DNA from: Fidelibacterota bacterium
Lineage (GTDB): Bacteria > Fidelibacterota > Marinisomatia > SCGC-AAA003-L08 > TS1B11
DNA length: 36,383 bases
Assembly (NCBI GenBank): GCA_020346745.1
Contig: CP070787.1
Coordinates: forward strand, 1-36,383
Direction of reading: 5' to 3'
Under the pieces are notes generated by a model, which saw only the letters and a list, made by a program, of their open reading frames with translations, had not been told where the DNA came from and searched no databases. A program made the translations under genes and the position numbers. Position 1 is the first letter of the stretch, and each line of letters begins with the position of its first letter. Shown piece after piece: positions 5,490-30,218 of the stretch.

Positions 5490-5944
5490 CAGCGAGAATC
5501 GGTCTGCTGTTCCTCCTCGCCGCGCTGGTACCCGTGGCAGGGCAGACATCAAATGAGCGGCAAACCGAGAGCATTTCGGATTCCCTCCTTTTTGTTCCTC
5601 TAGCGCTATTCCCGCCCTGGACAGCCCCAGCAGCCATGAGAGCCGCCCCTGAGCCGGACAGTCTGGTCTTTACCCCGCCTTCCATTCAGATAGCCGATAA
5701 GTCTTTCTTCAGGGGCCAACGGCGGATTGGATTGGGCATGGTCATTCTATTCAGCGCACTCTCCTATTACTTCCACCAGGAAGCCGAAGCGGCTTACCAG
5801 GCCTATAGGACTTCCGGCAATCCGGCAGAACTGGAGGATCTATTTAACGAAACCCAGAGATTAGATCAACAGGCCGGGTGGTGCTTCTTAGGAGCAGAGA
5901 CCGGTCTCCTACTGGTAGCGTTCTCAGTTATTCTCAGCCAATGA
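5486..5944 (+). CDS. Small membrane protein of unknown function
   Basis: 152 residues; the family is not recognised. An N-terminal hydrophobic stretch ending near VAGQ looks like a signal peptide. A basic patch (FFRGQRRIG) precedes a hydrophobic segment at about 82-95, followed by a helical, polar EAEAAYQAY region and a second hydrophobic segment at the C-terminus (ETGLLLVAFSVIL). This suggests two transmembrane helices with a short charged loop. The ATG overlaps the stop of the PQQ lipoprotein, and its own stop overlaps the next start, both as ATGA, indicating translational coupling in one envelope operon. Confidence 0.65.
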   Translation: MTARIGLLFLLAALVPVAGQTSNERQTESISDSLLFVPLALFPPWTAPAAMRAAPEPDSLVFTPPSIQIADKSFFRGQRRIGLGMVILFSALSYYFHQEAEAAYQAYRTSGNPAELEDLFNETQRLDQQAGWCFLGAETGLLLVAFSVILSQ

Positions 5945-7203
5945 GATTTATCCTATTACTCCTGGTCACCATCCTAGCCATGACCTGTTCTGATCGGGAA
6001 CGCAGCAATCCCTTAGATCCTGCGAATCCTTATACTCACGGTGCTCCCACCAGCTTTAGAGCCGTCACCAACCGCGATACCGTCCGCCTCTATTGGGATT
6101 CTATGCTGGTTAAGGATTTAACAGGCTATCGCATCTATCGCAGCCTGGGCGAAAATCCCCTAATGGCGTACGATACAATCGCCCCTTGGACCACCCCCTA
6201 CGAAGAGTGGAACCTGAATTACAACCAGCACCATACCTACGCAGTGCAGGCGGTGATGTCTGAAGGGGAGAGCTTCCTGTCACAGCCGGATACAGTGATT
6301 CCCGGCCCACATAATTTCTGGATCGCTGATTTTTACAGCTCTCAGATATGGCGAATCAGTTACGATGGGGCCCATGTTATCGGGCAGGAGTACTTCACTT
6401 CACCGGCAGCCATTGCGGTTTCTCCTGAATCCGACCGGGTCTGGATCGCCGATTACTACGAGCGAGCAGTCTACATCATCAACACTCAATTCAACGAGAT
6501 CGAGAGAGTTACAGTTGATGGACTACCGATCGATCTAGCATTGGTTTCCAGCGGTGATGCTTTTGTCCTTGAACGGCTACCGGACCGCATCTCCAAGATA
6601 AGCATTTCAGGGACTACTCCGGATACACTGACTGTTCCTGACTATATCCATGCAAGTGCCACCCTGGCATATGACGATGTCACCAACACGCTATGGCTCA
6701 GCAATCCAGGATCTTCCACGAGCGGCCATATCTACCGGTGTTGGCCTTACCAGTCCAACAGCCAGTGGGAGCCCGTAGCCTCGCTCGACGATCCCAGGCG
6801 CATCCGAGCCGATCCGCTATCTGGTGGGTGTTGGGTAGCCATAGATACAGGGGTAGTTCACATCAACACCAGCGGTACGTTGACGACTTACCTTCCCTAC
6901 CTGCGTATCCGGGACATCAGCCTTAATCCGACCAATGGAGACTGTTATTTTGTGGGATACACCGGGCAGGAAGGAAGGTGGCAGGCGGGACGCCTCTTTG
7001 GTGGGCAAGCATCGGACGCAGAGATCATTCTTGATAACACCATCACACATCTAGAGGATATCCAAGCCCTATCGGGTGAGGGCCGGGTTGGATTCATGGT
7101 CAGCCAGATATGGACAGGCCAGCTAATCCGCATTGATTCCGGGGGGAATCTTATCGGGCGACTGGGGGGATTCGACTCCTACCTGGAATTGGCCCTGGAA
7201 TAG
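5941..7203 (+). CDS. Lipoprotein with Fn3-like domain and NHL-type propeller
   Basis: 420 residues. The start at 5941 (ATGA overlap with the upstream stop) is chosen because it gives a clean lipoprotein signal, MRFILLLLVTILAMTC with lipid Cys16; an earlier in-frame start at 5878 would bury it. Right after the cysteine comes SNPLDPANP, a motif common in exported lipoproteins of some FCB lineages. Residues about 35-120 resemble a fibronectin type III fold (TSFRAVTN...VRLYWD...GYRIYRS). The rest contains repeated WIAD/VWIADYY blades like an NHL or SMP-30 type six-bladed propeller. It is probably a periplasmic or surface binding or scaffolding protein; no catalytic residues were recognised. Confidence 0.75.
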   Translation: MRFILLLLVTILAMTCSDRERSNPLDPANPYTHGAPTSFRAVTNRDTVRLYWDSMLVKDLTGYRIYRSLGENPLMAYDTIAPWTTPYEEWNLNYNQHHTYAVQAVMSEGESFLSQPDTVIPGPHNFWIADFYSSQIWRISYDGAHVIGQEYFTSPAAIAVSPESDRVWIADYYERAVYIINTQFNEIERVTVDGLPIDLALVSSGDAFVLERLPDRISKISISGTTPDTLTVPDYIHASATLAYDDVTNTLWLSNPGSSTSGHIYRCWPYQSNSQWEPVASLDDPRRIRADPLSGGCWVAIDTGVVHINTSGTLTTYLPYLRIRDISLNPTNGDCYFVGYTGQEGRWQAGRLFGGQASDAEIILDNTITHLEDIQALSGEGRVGFMVSQIWTGQLIRIDSGGNLIGRLGGFDSYLELALE

Positions 7204-23209: not shown

Positions 23210-23698
23210 ATAACTGAATTTCCAGCCAAGAGTCTCAATCCGCTGACACGGTTTCCCATTCAATTTGCTAAGTCTATGTCTTCTATACCGTTTCTCGACG
23301 TGTCAGAGCGAAAATGTTTGGGGCTGCGGGCACGGACTTTAACAGAATTTGTTGACTTGATGGATGCTGGCCGGGAACTCTGAGGCCAGAATATCATTTC
23401 AGATTTGCGGACAAAGGACCATATTTAGAAGTTAAAGGCATAAAAACACCAAATAATTAACCGCCCCTTCTTTTTCAGCTAAGCTTACAAATTCTGATAG
23501 CGGCTTGATTCCGCCAGATGCAGCACTGCCGACTGGTGTAGGCAGCATGAACGGTCGCGGCCACAAGATAAATTTTACGATGGTTTTCCCCAATCCAATT
23601 GTATGGACATCACGAGCACTGGTATATCTGGTCCTCGGCCAAGAATTAGACTTTTCCACCCTTAATGTCAGGTTATCAACGGAAGGATGCAGGCTGTC
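23210..23698 (+). other. Long non-coding gap and candidate structured leader of rho
   Basis: This is the only gene-free stretch over 300 bases. It contains several inverted repeats: CTGACACG (23243-23250) with CGTGTCAG (23299-23306); CTGGCC (23367-23372) with GGCCAG (23384-23389); GCGG/CCGC (23500-23514); CTGCC/GGCAG (23526-23545); and TGGTC/GGCCA (23629-23641). No T-rich terminator tail or tRNA is seen. Rho genes often have a long leader through which Rho limits its own expression, so an autoregulatory leader is a reasonable inference. Two short overlapping ORFs on opposite strands here do not resemble known genes. Confidence 0.45.
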
Positions 23699-24964
23699 AT
23701 GACAGAGCAACCCATCATGGATATCAGCGAATTGCAATCACTGCGGGTAAAGGACCTCACCAAGATGGCGCAGGAGCTGGAAGTGAGCGACTACTCAGGA
23801 CTGCGAAAGCATGACCTTATCCTGAAAATCCTGGAGACCCAGGCTCAGCGACAAGGGAACGTTTATGCCCGTGGAGTGTTGGAGATCATGCCGGACGGCT
23901 ACGGGTTTCTACGATCGTCCGATTTCAACTATCTCCCAGGTCCGGATGACATTTACGTTTCCCCCTCGCAAATCAAGCGGTTCGGTCTGCGTACCGGGCA
24001 CCTGATCAGCGGACAGGTTCGTCCACCCAAGGATAACGAGCGCTTTTTCGCTCTCCTCAGGGTAGATGCCGTGAATGGTATTTCACCTGAAGAAATCAAG
24101 TCATTCCCTCATTTCGTAGACTTGACCCCCCAGTTCCCCGAAGAGCATCTAGTTCTGGAGACAACTCCGAAGGAGCTAGCCATGCGCATCATCGATCTGC
24201 TGGCTCCCATTGGCAAGGGTCAACGAGGGCTCATCCCGGCTCAGCCAAAAACAGGAAAGACTATTCTGCTGCAAAAGATCGCCAACGCCATAACCCAAAA
24301 TCATCCAGACATCCATCTGATCATCCTGCTCATAGATGAACGTCCCGAGGAGGTGACAGAGATGAAGCGGAGTGTGGACGCGGAGGTTGTTTCTTCCACC
24401 TTTGATGAGCCGGCTGAGAGGCACGTACAGGTGGCGGAAATGGTACTGCAACGTGCTCGCCGTATGGTGGAAGTAGGCATGGATGTTATGATCCTGCTGG
24501 ATTCAGTCACCCGTCTTGCTCGAGCGCATAATACCGTCATCCCACACAGCGGGAAAATCCTCTCCGGCGGTGTGGATGCCAATGCGCTACAGAAACCCAA
24601 GCGCTTTTTCGGATCGGCCCGGAATGTCGACGAAGGCGGCAGCCTAACCATCATAGCAACTGCTCTGATTGATACTGGTAGCCGCATGGACGATGTGATA
24701 TTCGAGGAATTCAAAGGTACGGGAAACATGGAGCTAGTGCTGGACCGTAATCTGAGTGATCGACGCATTTACCCGGCCCTCGATATCAACAGAGCCGGAA
24801 CCAGGCGTGAAGAGAAGCTATTGAGCCGGAAGGATCTATCGCGTATCTGGATCTTGCGGCGACTACTCAATGACATGAGTGCGGTGGAAGCCATGGAGTT
24901 CCTGCTGGATCGACTCCAACGTACCAAAAAGAATCGGGAATTCCTGGACACCATGAGCGATTAA
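23699..24964 (+). CDS. rho: Transcription termination factor Rho
   Basis: About 421 residues from ATG 23699; an ATG at 23687 is in frame but its only purine-rich site (GGAAGG) touches it, whereas that site is about 11 bases from 23699. The N-terminal Rho domain ([20 protein letters not shown]) is followed by the RNA-binding cold-shock-like domain with [13 protein letters not shown]. The ATPase core has the Walker A motif AQPKTGKT (181-188), Walker [12 protein letters not shown] and [11 protein letters not shown], and the Q/R-loop region [21 protein letters not shown]. It is a hexameric RNA helicase that ends transcription of untranslated RNA. There is no long insertion, so it is a compact form. 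Confidence 0.96.
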
Positions 24965-24997
24965 ATCTAGCCTAGCAATGAGAGAAAAGAAGAGGAC

Positions 24998-25723
24998 ATG
25001 ATAGTATATCCCCCGACAGAGACGGCACGTGCAATTTGTGTGAGATTTCATACTGACCATCCGGTAGAAGCAACTCCGTATCAATTAAAAGGAGCCATCA
25101 TTCGCAGCTTCCCCAACCATTCGATCATACCATATATCAACGGGGAATACCGAGGACAGATGCGCTATCCGCGGGTTCAGGTGAAGGTACTACGCAATCA
25201 ATTGTGCATATTCGGCCTTGGAAGCGGCTACGACGTCGTCCAGGCTTTTTGTCATGATCTTGAGGAATTTGAAATAGAGGATCAGACCTACAAGGTTGTT
25301 GGAATGGACACGCCGGAGAGCGAATTACAGCTCAATCGACATGCCAGCCATTTTCACCGCTATAAATTCATTACACCTTGGGTTGCCTTAAATCGGCGCT
25401 CTCTGGCCATGTACAAAGCCCTTCTGCCAATGGAACGAGTTGCCTTCCTGAACCGCCTGCTGGTACAGAACCTACTGTTCATCGCCAGGGAACTGGGATT
25501 TAATGTCGGGTATACCCTGAGTGCCCGGGTGAAGCTCCAATCCTTGAGCCCACGAGTGGTGGAGGAGCAGGGCAGTGGTTCCTTCAAAGGCTACTTTACC
25601 TCGAACATGATTCTACCTGATTACCTGGGACTAGGCAACGGTATAACCAAAGGACTGGGTACCATCGTTCAGATTGAAGAGCAACCCATCGACAATCTAC
25701 CGGCCCCCATCACACCTGATTGA
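24998..25723 (+). CDS. Solitary Cas6b-like RAMP protein
   Basis: 241 residues. The N-terminal half (LKGAIIRSFPNHSII, then MRYPRVQVKVLRNQLCIFGLGSG at about 55-77) resembles the Cas6b N-terminal domain. The C-terminal half has YKFITPWVALN (122-132), LLVQNLLFIARELGF, FKGYFTSNMILPDYLGLG and the glycine-rich loop GNGITKGLGTI (213-223), as in the Cas6b C-terminal domain. Cas6 enzymes cut CRISPR precursor RNA. In the stretch where related proteins often carry histidines (LLHNH-like), this one reads SIIPYI, with His41 and Tyr46 as the nearest candidates, so activity is uncertain. AAGAAGAGG precedes the ATG and the gene follows rho by 33 bases. No repeats or other cas genes occur in this window. Confidence 0.8.
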   Translation: MIVYPPTETARAICVRFHTDHPVEATPYQLKGAIIRSFPNHSIIPYINGEYRGQMRYPRVQVKVLRNQLCIFGLGSGYDVVQAFCHDLEEFEIEDQTYKVVGMDTPESELQLNRHASHFHRYKFITPWVALNRRSLAMYKALLPMERVAFLNRLLVQNLLFIARELGFNVGYTLSARVKLQSLSPRVVEEQGSGSFKGYFTSNMILPDYLGLGNGITKGLGTIVQIEEQPIDNLPAPITPD

Positions 25724-25750: not shown

Positions 25751-26941
25751 ATGCTGAATTTTGCAGACAGGGCAGCACGAATCGAGAGTTCCATCACCCT
25801 GGAAATGACTGCCCGGGCTGCGGAGCTGCGCACAGCCGGGGTGGACGTTATCAACCTCGCGGTCGGAGAACCGGACTTTCCCACCCCCGCCCACATCGTC
25901 GCCGCTGCCAAACAGGCAATGGATGAGGGTCATACGCGCTATACACCGGGTCCGGGAATACCAGCGTTGCGCGAGGCAATAACGGTGAAACTGGAACGAG
26001 ATAACCGGATTAGCGCTACACCCGAGCAGGTCATCGTGAGCAACGGTGGAAAGCATTCCCTGTTCAACGCCTGTTTGAGTCTATTCGACAAGGGGGACGA
26101 AGTCATCATCTTCACACCCTACTGGCTCTCATTCCCCGATCTGGTCAAACTGGCTCACGCCACACCGATATTCGTAGGGACTGACCCCGAGCGGCAATTC
26201 GAACCCCGTTTTGATGAGCTGAAGGCGAGAATTACCTCACGAACCAGAGGTATTATCATGAACTCCCCTTCCAATCCTACCGGGGGGGTATGGAGCCGAG
26301 AGGCAGTAGAGCTCATGCTTGAACTAGTCAAGGAGCACGACTTGTGGCTGCTATCCGATGAGTGCTACGAAGCGTTGTCCTACGACGAGCCCTTTGAATC
26401 GCCTGCGTCCCTCGCACCGGATGATGAGAAGATCCTAACGTTTCAGAGTTGCTCAAAAACCTACGCGATGACTGGTTGGCGAATCGGTTACATGGCAGGC
26501 CCGGTGGAGCTGGTTGAAACCATGTCCAAAATCCAGGGCCAGAGTACATCCTGCCCCAACGCTATCAGCCAAATGGCCGCGATCGCCGCCTTGACAGGAG
26601 ATCAATCCATAGTGGCTGAATATAAAGCTGCTTTCAAACGCCGACGGGGACTCATGGTAGAGAGTTTATCTCAAATCCCGGGGCTTTCCTGCCGGAACCC
26701 TGGAGGCGCCTTTTACGTTTTCCTGAATGTAAGCGGTCTATTTGGAAAGCGGGCTGACCACCAGACCATTCGAACGCCCAAAGACGTGACTGAATACTTG
26801 CTCACCGCCGTCCAGGTGGTCACTGTGAACGGCGAGGCGTTTGGCGATCAGGAACACATACGCCTGTCGTATGCTGTCTCGGACGAGGATATTACCGCCG
26901 CCGGAGAGCGCATTACTGCTGCGGTGGCACACTTGAACTAA
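25751..26941 (+). CDS. Class I/II PLP-dependent aminotransferase (aspartate aminotransferase type)
   Basis: 396 residues, full length for the fold-type I aspartate aminotransferase subgroup 1b. Landmarks: NLAVGEPDFPTP at the N-terminus, the TRYTPGPGIPALREAI segment, NSPSNPTGG for substrate carboxylate binding, LLSDECYEAL, the PLP lysine Lys236 in SCSKTYAMTGWRIGY, and an arginine in the C-terminal IRLSYAV. It transfers an amino group between aspartate (or prephenate, in related members) and a 2-oxo acid in the cytoplasm. It lies between the Cas6b-like gene and rpmE with a 27-base gap, probably on the same transcript as rho. Confidence 0.92.
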   Translation: MLNFADRAARIESSITLEMTARAAELRTAGVDVINLAVGEPDFPTPAHIVAAAKQAMDEGHTRYTPGPGIPALREAITVKLERDNRISATPEQVIVSNGGKHSLFNACLSLFDKGDEVIIFTPYWLSFPDLVKLAHATPIFVGTDPERQFEPRFDELKARITSRTRGIIMNSPSNPTGGVWSREAVELMLELVKEHDLWLLSDECYEALSYDEPFESPASLAPDDEKILTFQSCSKTYAMTGWRIGYMAGPVELVETMSKIQGQSTSCPNAISQMAAIAALTGDQSIVAEYKAAFKRRRGLMVESLSQIPGLSCRNPGGAFYVFLNVSGLFGKRADHQTIRTPKDVTEYLLTAVQVVTVNGEAFGDQEHIRLSYAVSDEDITAAGERITAAVAHLN

Positions 26942-26956
26942 GGAGAGAACCATCAT

Positions 26957-27169
26957 ATGAGAAAAGACATTCATCCCGAATACCACCTTGTCACGGTACA
27001 CTGCGCCTGCGGTAATTCTTTCCAGACAAGGTCCACGGTCAAGGAGCTGCGGGTGGAAATCTGCAATGCCTGCCACCCTTTCTTCACGGGAAAACAGAAG
27101 CTGGTGGACACCGCTGGTCGAGTAGAGAAGTACCGGCGTAAGTACAAGATCGAAACCCCGGCAGATTAG
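26957..27169 (+). CDS. rpmE: 50S ribosomal protein L31
   Basis: 70 residues. It begins [10 protein letters not shown], the hallmark start of L31, and has cysteines 16, 18, 36 and 39 (CAC, CNAC) that bind zinc, so this is the C+ zinc form. [20 protein letters not shown] is the conserved end. It belongs to the large ribosomal subunit and contacts the bridge to the small subunit. AAGGAGAG lies upstream of the ATG. Placement near rho, DUF1385 and prfA is a common order in several bacterial phyla. Confidence 0.96.
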
Positions 27170-27205
27170 GTCCATAGTACTGACAATCCATTGACGTTGT
27201 TGAAG

Positions 27206-28177
27206 ATGGCTATTCGGCCATTCCCGTTTCTCCTGCTGGCCGCCCAATCCCGTATTCTGGTTGGCGGGCAAGCCGTGATCGAAGGTGTCATGATGCGGGT
27301 ACCCGGCTCCTATGCCGTGGCAGTCCGTGATCCCGAGGGCCAGATCCAGACCAAATGCCAAGCTTTCACCTCCGCAGTGGAGCGTTCCCGCTGGTTGAAA
27401 CTGCCCTTATTAAGGGGAGTGGTGCACTTATTTGAATCCCTGAAGCTGGGACTGAGTACCTTGAACTGGTCGGCGGAGGTGGCCTTCCCCGAAGAGGTTT
27501 CAGGAAAGAGCTCTGCATCCGGAGTCTGGACCACCATCCTGGCCTTTGGACTAGCCATTGGGCTCTTCTTCATAGCCCCCTTATGGATCACGACGAAACT
27601 CCTGCAGCTTGAGCAGCATGCCTTGGGATTTAACCTGGTTTCAGGAGCTATCCGCATCACATTTTTCCTCCTGTATCTTGTGCTGATATCCCTGGCCAAA
27701 GACATCAGGCGGCTATTCGAGTATCACGGTGCCGAGCATAAGACCGTCTATGCTTTCGAGGCGGGAAAGTCTCTCACCGTTGACAGCACCCGGGACTTTC
27801 CTACCCAGCATCCCCGCTGTGGGACCAGCTTTCTATTCATCGTTTTGATCGCTGCCATTCTGGCGTTCGCGTTGATCGACACCATTGTTTTGGCTCTAGT
27901 GGGAAAAATATCCTTAGGCTTACGGCTACTGGTCCACTTGCCGCTCATACCGGTGGTGGCCGGTGCCGGATACGAGGCTCTCAAAATCACCGCCAGATAC
28001 CAGCACATGCGCCTTTTTCGATGGTTCTCCCTACCCGGCATCTGGTTGCAGTATATTACCACCCGAATGCCCGACGACGATCAGGTGACGGTAGCCCTGC
28101 AATCCCTCAAGGTTGCCTTTGGAGATAAACTCCAGGAGGTTGAAGGGCAGGAATACGTGGCCGATGCCATTGCCTGA
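27206..28177 (+). CDS. DUF1385 (YqhQ-like) membrane protein
   Basis: 323 residues from ATG 27206; a TTG at 27191 is in frame but adds only five residues. The family signature GGQAVIEGVMMRVPGSYAVAVR lies near the N-terminus. Later motifs are YHGAEHKTVYAFEAG and TQHPRCGTSFLF, also typical. There are four to five hydrophobic helices (around 110-130, 145-165, 210-235 and 240-265). The biochemical role of DUF1385 is unknown to me; it is often next to rpmE and prfA. Histidines and cysteine in the conserved motifs could bind metal, but this is speculation. Confidence 0.9.
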   Translation: MAIRPFPFLLLAAQSRILVGGQAVIEGVMMRVPGSYAVAVRDPEGQIQTKCQAFTSAVERSRWLKLPLLRGVVHLFESLKLGLSTLNWSAEVAFPEEVSGKSSASGVWTTILAFGLAIGLFFIAPLWITTKLLQLEQHALGFNLVSGAIRITFFLLYLVLISLAKDIRRLFEYHGAEHKTVYAFEAGKSLTVDSTRDFPTQHPRCGTSFLFIVLIAAILAFALIDTIVLALVGKISLGLRLLVHLPLIPVVAGAGYEALKITARYQHMRLFRWFSLPGIWLQYITTRMPDDDQVTVALQSLKVAFGDKLQEVEGQEYVADAIA

Positions 28178-28186
28178 GGCCTTGAA

Positions 28187-29248
28187 ATGATAGAGAAACT
28201 CCACGAAATCATCCAGCGGCATGACGACCTCGCCGCCCGTATGTCGGATCCCGAAACGGCTGCCGATCCCAAACAGTACGCCGATCTGGCCAAGGAACAC
28301 AGCGAGTTGAGCGCAGTCGTGGATAAGGCCCGGAGATACGTGGAATTAAAAACACGACTGGAGGAAGCTGACGATATTCTTATGGGCGACGATCCCGAGC
28401 TCAAGGAACTGGCCCAGGAAGAAATACCGGAGCTGAAAAGTCAGCTGGAAGAGCTGGAGGAGGAGCTCAAGATCCTGCTACTGCCCCGCGATCCCGCTGA
28501 TGACAAGCATACCATTCTCGAGATCCGCGGCGGGACCGGTGGAGAAGAAGCTGCATTATTCGCCGCCGATCTTTACCGGATGTACACCCGCTATGCCGAG
28601 CGTCGGAGCTGGGAGACCGAGGTCATGTCGCTGTCCGAGTCCGAGACGGGCGGCATCAAAGAGATCATCGTCTCGGTGAAGGGCAAGGGCGCCTATGGTG
28701 ACCTGAAGTACGAGAGTGGCGTTCATCGCGTCCAGCGGGTACCAGTGACGGAGGCCAGTGGTCGCATCCATACCAGTGCCGCCTCGGTGGCGGTCCTGCC
28801 TGAAGCAGACGAAGTTGAGGTGAATATTGATCCCACTGAGCTGAAGATCGATACCTACCGGGCTTCGGGTGCCGGCGGGCAACACGTGAACAAGACCGAA
28901 TCCGCTGTGCGAATCACCCATGTTCCCTCCGGCATCGTAGTGACTTGCCAAGATGAGAAATCCCAACACAAGAACCGCACCAAAGCCATGAAGGTACTGG
29001 CCTCCCGTTTGTATGCCCACCAGGTAGAGGAACAGCATCGCCAGCGAGCTGACCAGCGCCGGAGCATGGTTTCCACCGGAGATCGAAGTGCCAAGATACG
29101 CACTTACAACTTTCCTCAGGGGCGCGTCACCGATCACCGTATCAACCTTACCCTCTACCGCCTGAATGAAATCACCGATGGTGATCTGGACGAGCTCATC
29201 GAGCAGCTGCGGGTGCAAGATCGCATGGAACGCCTAGCCGAGGTGTGA
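28187..29248 (+). CDS. prfA: Peptide chain release factor 1 (RF1)
   Basis: 353 residues. It recognises UAG and UAA stop codons and triggers release of the finished protein. The tripeptide PVT (186-188, in [11 protein letters not shown]) is the RF1-type PxT anticodon; RF2 would have SPF. The GGQ motif is at 230-232 ([11 protein letters not shown]). The C-terminal [19 protein letters not shown] is conserved. Together these exclude RF2 and the smaller rescue factors. It starts 9 bases after the DUF1385 stop, so the genes are one unit, and prmC, whose product methylates this GGQ, follows. Confidence 0.97.
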
Positions 29249-29282: not shown

Positions 29283-29312
29283 TGTCATGCTGAGATCCGC
29301 CGGAGCATGACA
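29283..29312. repeat. REP-like inverted repeat between prfA and prmC
   Basis: TGTCATGCT (29283-29291) and AGCATGACA (29304-29312) form a perfect 9-base stem around a 12-base loop (GAGATCCGCCGG). The pattern GTCATGCTGAG...AGCATGAC resembles small palindromic intergenic repeats found in many bacterial genomes. No second copy was seen in this window. The 3-prime arm contains the ATG at 29307, one possible start of prmC. Confidence 0.6.
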
Positions 29313-29345
29313 CCACCAAAAGCAGGTCCTTCCCCACAATCATCA

Positions 29346-30218
29346 ATGGCCGATGCTCAGACGGCCACTTCCAAACGCAAACAGTGGCACATTATCGACC
29401 TGATCCAGTGGGGTACCCAGTACCTGAGCGATAAACAGATCTCCAACGCCAGACTGGAAGTAGAGTGGCTTTTGGCCCACCAATTGGGCACAGAGCGAGT
29501 AGATCTCTACGTCCAGCATGACCGACTGCTCACGCATGATGAGCTTTCGGGTTTCAAGGCAATGGTTCAACGACGGACGGGAGGCGAACCATTTCAGTAT
29601 ATCCTAGGCAAGGCTCCCTTCTATGGCCGCGATTTCAAGGTCACCCCGGAGGTCCTGATTCCCCGGCCTGAATCTGAAATCCTCATTCAAGTGCTGCGCA
29701 AAGGTTCCCCGCCGGAGTCTCTCCTGGATATCGGCACTGGTTCCGGCTGCCTGGCTGTCACGGCAGCAATGCTTTACTCCCGTGCCGAGGTGCTGGCAAT
29801 TGACGTTTCCCCGGCAGCGCTGGAAATCGCCCGGGAGAATGCCCGAACTATGGGTGCTGAAAACGTGACCTTCGGCGAGCTGGATATCCTGACTGCATCG
29901 CCTGAGGGCACTTTCGATGCCATCCTGTGCAATCCACCTTATGTGGCTACAGACGAGGTATCCCGGCTTCAGCGGGAAATCAGGGAACATGAACCACCAG
30001 ATGCCGTCACAGATCACGCCGATGGCCTGACCTTCCATCGCCGCCTGGCGGAGATTGGTCCCACACTATTGAATTCCGGTGGGAGGCTGCTGGTGGAGAT
30101 CGGCGGCAAGGCCCAAGCCAAGCCTGCGCTGGAAATCCTTGAAGGCGCGGGTGCACATGTTATCCTGCATAAGGATCTGCAGGGAGATGATAGAGTTGCA
30201 GAGACTCATTGGTCATAG
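29346..30218 (+). CDS. prmC: Release factor glutamine methyltransferase (PrmC/HemK)
   Basis: 290 residues from ATG 29346. An in-frame ATG at 29307 lies inside a hairpin arm and would add 13 residues without homology, so the later start is preferred, though neither has a good Shine-Dalgarno site. The N-terminal helical domain (LIQWGTQYLSDKQISNARLEVEWLL) binds the release factor. The SAM-dependent core has IPRPESE, LLDIGTGSGCLAV for SAM binding and NPPY at 196-199, the motif that holds the glutamine. It methylates the Gln of GGQ in RF1 and RF2, which increases termination. It follows prfA as in many bacteria. Confidence 0.94.
   Translation: MADAQTATSKRKQWHIIDLIQWGTQYLSDKQISNARLEVEWLLAHQLGTERVDLYVQHDRLLTHDELSGFKAMVQRRTGGEPFQYILGKAPFYGRDFKVTPEVLIPRPESEILIQVLRKGSPPESLLDIGTGSGCLAVTAAMLYSRAEVLAIDVSPAALEIARENARTMGAENVTFGELDILTASPEGTFDAILCNPPYVATDEVSRLQREIREHEPPDAVTDHADGLTFHRRLAEIGPTLLNSGGRLLVEIGGKAQAKPALEILEGAGAHVILHKDLQGDDRVAETHWS

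Follow-up and report, generated by a model that had tools for sequence, protein, structure and literature searches.

A Cas6b homologue lacking its canonical catalytic residues is encoded directly behind rho in much of the phylum Fidelibacterota

Fidelibacterota is a mostly marine bacterial phylum, formerly known as Marinimicrobia or SAR406. The sequence considered here (the window) is a stretch of 36,383 nt from one member of this phylum, and contains an intact open reading frame on the forward strand (24998–25723, 241 aa), encoding a Cas6b-like protein, immediately downstream from rho. The product of rho (23687–24964, 425 aa) was identified from its Pfam Rho_N, Rho_RNA_bind and ATP-synt_ab domains, and only 33 nt separate its stop codon from the Cas6b-like gene, referred to below as rho-cas6b; a scan revealed no terminator-like site on the forward strand between the two genes. 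They are followed, on the same strand, by genes for a class I aminotransferase (25751–26941; PF00155), ribosomal protein L31 (rpmE, 26957–27169; PF01197), a DUF1385 protein (27191–28177; PF07136), release factor 1 (prfA, 28187–29248; PCRF and RF-1 domains) and the release-factor methyltransferase (prmC, 29307–30218; PrmC_N). The first-pass annotation of this DNA described a rho-rpmE-prfA block, and these neighbours are indeed present, with the correction that the aminotransferase gene lies between cas6b and rpmE. It also described a strong Shine-Dalgarno site. An AGAGGA motif can be read at 24991–24996 (+), but it lies just 1 nt from the ATG, so either the true start of cas6b or the strength of the site is uncertain. 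No Rfam family was detected in the window. The rho leader is 477 nt long (23210–23686) and includes a pyrimidine-rich block, ACCGCCCCTTCTTTTTCAGCTAAG, common to the close relatives L030 and L031, which is possibly a rut-like or other regulatory element. A conserved binding site in the leader was considered and rejected: the long rho leaders of family f1 align poorly (51% mean column identity), and the short pyrimidine-rich block is all that they have in common, within the genus.

The window protein matches both Pfam halves of Cas6b above the curated cut-offs (Cas6b_C, E = 2.4e-23, 83 bits for a cut-off of 39.4; Cas6b_N, E = 6.4e-12, 45.9 bits for a cut-off of 25), as the first-pass annotation had proposed. 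PADLOC profiles identified it as Cas6 (1.5e-37) and Cas6b (1.2e-35), and there was no match in NCBIfam. The only significant matches in the PDB were the Cas6b structures of Methanococcus maripaludis, 4z7k and 4z7l (E = 2e-21 for a single-sequence query, 2.9e-40 for a profile query). An AlphaFold2 model of the protein (pLDDT 85.6, pTM 0.81) adopts the double-RAMP fold of Cas6b, and a Foldseek comparison of this model with the PDB, the fold comparison suggested at the outset, placed 4z7k first (E = 3.4e-16, TM 0.80 over the target), with 4z7k and 4z7l followed by other Cas6 proteins. The glycine-rich loop expected near the end of the protein is also present, as GLGNGITKGLG (residues 211–221, 25628–25660, +). 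The product is thus a true Cas6b homologue, by sequence and predicted fold.

The residues conserved in CRISPR-linked Cas6b are mostly replaced in the rho-linked copies. Catalysis by the M. maripaludis enzyme has been linked to two histidines (PMC3652601). The numbers H38, H40 and Y47 used here are those of 4z7k (Mm), read from an alignment in which 74 rho-linked copies were compared with 18 others. A third residue, Y47, is presumably also catalytic in M. maripaludis Cas6b. These three positions are almost invariant in canonical copies (H38 in 16/17, H40 in 17/17, Y47 in 16/17). In the window protein, the place of the canonical xxxHxH is occupied by SIIPYI (residues 42–47, 25121–25138, +), a substitution already noticed in the first reading of the sequence, with P45 at the position of H38 and I47 at that of H40, and M55 (25160–25162, +) replaces the tyrosine. 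The same is true of the rho-linked copies as a group, which have proline at the H38 position in 59 of 74 cases, leucine, isoleucine or methionine at the H40 position in 71 of 74, and F, Y, V or L at the Y47 position in 44, 15, 7 and 3 cases, respectively. The residues N128 and K181 and the basic residue at 206 are mostly replaced in these copies, by T/N/S, D/E and N, respectively; position 206, in the glycine-rich loop, is N in 69/74 rho-linked copies, versus K/R in 16/18 canonical ones. At conserved basic positions 181 and 206, the window protein has E189 and N214, so that it carries neither the histidine pair and tyrosine nor the basic residues of a crRNA endoribonuclease. No conserved histidine replacing those lost was found in the aligned core of the rho-linked copies. 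The mean net charge of the core is also lower, at +3.2 for rho-linked copies versus +7.4 for canonical Cas6b (+1 for the window protein).

Other positions have become near-invariant. A signature consisting of G49 (73/74), R52 (69/74) and R59 (70/74), followed by the shared Q61 (25142–25180, +), characterizes the rho-linked copies, and these three positions are not conserved in canonical copies. In all, the residues P22, T26, Y28, K31, G49, R52, R59, F161, E165, G194 and N214 are near-invariant specifically in the rho-linked clade, whereas Y57, P58, Q61, K63, Y122, W128, N158, N203 and the glycine-rich loop are near-invariant in both groups. The dN/dS ratio among relatives of the same family was between 0.03 and 0.27, with synonymous sites close to saturation, and the rho-linked protein is under purifying selection. 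The loss of histidine is not, in itself, proof of inactivity, because SsoCas6 (Sso1437), a crenarchaeal enzyme, cleaves RNA without the canonical histidine (PMC3652601). However, the joint loss of so many residues makes it likely that cleavage has been lost.

No CRISPR array was found in the 36-kb window, consistent with the first-pass annotation. Searches were extended to whole genomes, via cas genes and a TTGAAAC repeat-end pattern. In the closed 3.1-Mb contig of the genome from which the window is taken (G000), there was no match for Cas1, type III RAMP, Cas3-HD or CRISPR_Cas6, although control genomes were matched in the same searches, and no other Cas6 was found; the finding that would have refuted the initial proposal, a CRISPR locus elsewhere in this genome without a Cas6 of its own, was not encountered. 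Arrays of the TTGAAAC type, the one type covered by the array search of whole genomes, were detected in 8 of 17 genomes and were absent from G000. Genomes G001 and G003 were likewise devoid of the cas genes and CRISPR machinery sought. G000 and G001, both single contigs of 3.1 Mb, are rated only 71% and 67% complete, respectively, perhaps due to sequencing errors or lineage-specific loss of marker genes.

Some relatives do have CRISPR loci. Cas1 is present in just three of 60, each locus having its own Cas6: a canonical Cas6b in G022, a CRISPR_Cas6 in G013 and a divergent Cas6 in G058. Arrays or cas genes were found in the carriers G013, G022, G058, G062, G065, G066 and G118. The divergent protein in G058 (L129, G058:C12, ORF 5700–6383) is Cas6-like, with no clear HxH, and belongs to a CRISPR locus bearing Cas1 and RAMP genes, with a nearby array whose repeat contains ATCAGACTGATAGGATGAAC. 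In G062, which carries rho-cas6b, TTGAAAC-type array matches lie at 2064237–2064767 (L162, G062:C1:2054000–2073900), with a repeat, GTTGAAGTGCCCATTCCATTAAGACAAGGATTGAAAC, also found in G065. There are no type I-B cas query genes within about 10 kb of this array, and the genome has no second Cas6b or CRISPR_Cas6.

The gene is widespread in the phylum. A protein search detected it in 28 of 60 relatives, and a scan of GTDB contigs yielded 19 loci, the majority from Candidatus Neomarinimicrobiota/Marinimicrobia. The Pfam Cas6b_C profile matched 130 of the 245 genomes of the phylum, a family profile giving the same picture, and four of these 130 (G080, G082, G209 and G218) apparently carry a non-rho Cas6b alone. 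The rho neighbourhood proved to be conserved in relatives, as the first reading had invited one to check: the locus was read in 81 Fidelibacterota genomes carrying a rho-type copy, and rho is immediately upstream of cas6b in every one, the median gap being 41 nt among 74 distinct sequences. The genes further downstream are less constant. In family f23, the order is rho-cas6b-ubiA-dnaE, without the aminotransferase, L31, DUF1385 and prfA genes, and the rho-cas6b pair is unbroken. One draft genome with 5% contamination (G160) contains two complete rho-cas6b operons (L179 and L180), and most likely represents two organisms in one bin. Outside the phylum, eight matches were obtained in about 147 other genomes; none adjoins rho and all have HxH, and a rho-linked form beyond Fidelibacterota was rejected on the basis of this set. 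Of these eight, L112 and L113 were confirmed to lie beside cas genes, and L119 to be accompanied by an array. Two matches on Runella plasmids are CRISPR-linked, with HNH.

A second Cas6b occurs in some genomes (e.g., G022, G065, G066, G118 and G129). In G022 (L130), it lies with cas8b (TM1802), cas7, cas5, cas3 and cas1, in a type I-B operon, and the second copy of G066 is likewise located in a type I-B operon. In a maximum-likelihood tree, read without an inferred root, a single branch with support of 99/95 separates the rho-linked from the non-rho copies, and the label changes only once. Among the rho-linked copies, branching follows family: f25 comes first, then f30/f31 and f22/f23, and then the class to which the window belongs. 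A single capture of the gene followed by vertical descent is therefore strongly supported by this phylogeny. Horizontal spread of the rho-linked copies was rejected, given the single label change and a tree that follows taxonomic groups.

An additional 72–141 amino acids, rich in lysine (16% K), are present in 50 rho-linked copies, which come from many families within the class of the window. This tail ends in a variant of the motif FNSxxYHKKQH in all 50 tailed copies, as read from the list, 35 of which match the strict pattern. The pattern was not found elsewhere, beyond the tails, in the 14 genomes searched. Both Cas6b profiles were matched by 41 of 41 tailed members (E ≤ 0.01). In an AlphaFold2 model of one such protein (L021), the tail is docked at about residues 250–275, whereas residues 284–337, including the motif, are predicted to be disordered, as would be expected of a motif that binds a partner. 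The window's own lineage has no tail.

The gene has also been lost. In nine genomes (G005, G012, G014, G024, G026, G011, G041, G045 and G051), cas6b is absent without trace and the aminotransferase gene directly follows rho. Most of the genomes that have lost the gene are small (0.8–1.9 Mb). G005 (L172, G005:C12), which is 95% complete and belongs to the window's own family, displays a clean, recent loss between rho and the aminotransferase gene. Clean losses in several lineages indicate that rho-cas6b, although useful, is dispensable.

Exaptation of this Cas6b away from CRISPR is strongly supported, and we hold it with high confidence. The role acquired is a more tentative matter. The most likely reading, to which we give slightly less than an even chance, is that the protein binds RNA without cleaving it, as a partner or regulator that works with Rho. 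The capture of a Cas6b of the type I-B CRISPR kind behind rho, at an early point in the history of the phylum, and its vertical inheritance since then as a household gene are strongly supported. The catalytic and phosphate-contacting residues have been lost, the double-RAMP fold and the glycine-rich loop have been kept, and new near-invariant residues have been gained. Made from the rho transcript, the protein would act together with Rho, binding specific nascent RNAs or RNA of the rho operon and thereby modulating termination or the expression of rho. In many marine lineages, the disordered lysine-rich linker with its conserved C-terminal FNSxxYHKKQH motif would probably serve as a tether, with Rho, RNA polymerase or the ribosome among the conceivable partners. 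The persistence of the rho-cas6b pair in f23, where the later genes differ, argues for a partnership with Rho; a core less basic than that of canonical Cas6b and the observed dispensability of the gene argue against it. Co-evolution of Rho with rho-cas6b was sought and rejected, a single weak column of Rho alone separating carriers from non-carriers. The wider proposal, that a CRISPR RNA-processing enzyme has entered core transcription in much of the phylum as a non-catalytic cofactor dedicated to Rho-mediated termination, is possible, and is advanced with greater caution.

Among the alternatives, it is conceivable, if somewhat unlikely, that the protein acts on translation or the ribosome, its position beside rho then perhaps being a matter of co-expression with translation genes rather than of joint action. 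L31, prfA and prmC are its neighbours here, translation genes are present in the block in most genomes, and the lysine-rich tail with its C-terminal motif could bind ribosomes, but rho-cas6b persists in f23, where L31, DUF1385 and prfA are missing from the block. We consider it unlikely that the protein has retained endoribonuclease activity through a new active site and processes a cellular RNA, of which the rho-operon transcript would be one example. The precedent of SsoCas6 (PMC3652601), and the location of the new conserved residues K31, R52 and R59, which in the sequence fall within the former active-site region or close to it, would be compatible with such an activity. However, both histidines, the tyrosine, K181 and the basic residue of the glycine-rich loop are mostly replaced, and the core has gained no conserved histidine. 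The first reading had suggested possible recruitment for the binding or processing of cellular RNA, and these losses of basic and catalytic residues disfavour processing. A scaffold role, in which the protein would bind other proteins but RNA no longer, for instance as an inhibitor or stabilizer of Rho, would account for the low net charge and the loss of conserved basic residues, but seems doubtful given that the residues common to canonical Cas6b are near-invariant, suggesting that an RNA-facing architecture has been kept.

The two remaining explanations can be set aside more firmly. The idea that the protein provides Cas6 activity in trans to CRISPR loci at other sites in the genome is very improbable and largely refuted: some carriers have arrays or cas genes, G062 has an array and no second Cas6b or CRISPR_Cas6, and most type III loci apparently rely on Cas6 supplied in trans (PMC12669027), but the few Cas1-bearing loci of carriers have their own Cas6, and no cas gene tested was found in G000, G001 or G003. 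A functionless, decaying CRISPR remnant would fit the lack of a detected CRISPR locus in the genome, the lost catalytic residues and the clean losses, but is refuted by strong purifying selection (dN/dS), phylum-wide retention beside rho, new near-invariant residues and the newly gained conserved tail.

A partnership with Rho, if real, would make rho-cas6b a termination factor of a new type, in a marine phylum that is abundant, and the data suggest that a protein of CRISPR immunity was converted to housekeeping use in gene expression. Genomes with the CRISPR form, genomes with the domesticated form and genomes from which the gene was cleanly lost can all be compared. Fidelibacter multiformis IA91 is cultured and has a 2.79-Mb genome (AP035449) with 45.6% GC (PMC11652737); this cultured relative probably carries rho-cas6b, making the proposal testable.

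The exaptation of CRISPR systems is a recognized trend, parts of these systems having been put to new use by mobile elements and in further functions unrelated to defence (PMC12669027). Well-described solo forms of Cas4 exist (PMC5704561), and, like rho-cas6b, these are Cas proteins outside CRISPR loci with mostly vertical inheritance; unlike rho-cas6b, solo-Cas4 is a nuclease, a different protein with no constant link to rho, and active-site loss is not its hallmark. In the open-access literature, we found no account of a household operon containing a domesticated Cas6, nor of a Cas6 that is fixed in such an operon throughout a large part of a phylum and has lost its active site. SsoCas6 resembles the rho-linked proteins in missing the canonical catalytic histidine, but it is a CRISPR-associated, active processing enzyme from another Cas6 subfamily (PMC3652601). 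The closest known system is the Cas6b of type I-B loci (M. maripaludis 4z7k/4z7l and Fidelibacterota L029/L130), with which the rho-linked copies have in common both Pfam halves, the double-RAMP fold, the glycine-rich loop and the motifs Y57-P58-x-x-Q61-x-K63, TPWxALN and N203-x-x-x-P207. They differ from it in lacking the HxH pair, K181, the basic loop residue and, in most cases, the tyrosine, and in being fixed behind rho and vertically inherited, with no linkage to cas genes or arrays and, in many cases, with a lysine-rich tail. The known partners of Rho include NusG, Psu, Hfq and YihE, which have folds unrelated to Cas6b and none of which is a CRISPR protein; if our inference is right, rho-cas6b would share with them the modulation of Rho.
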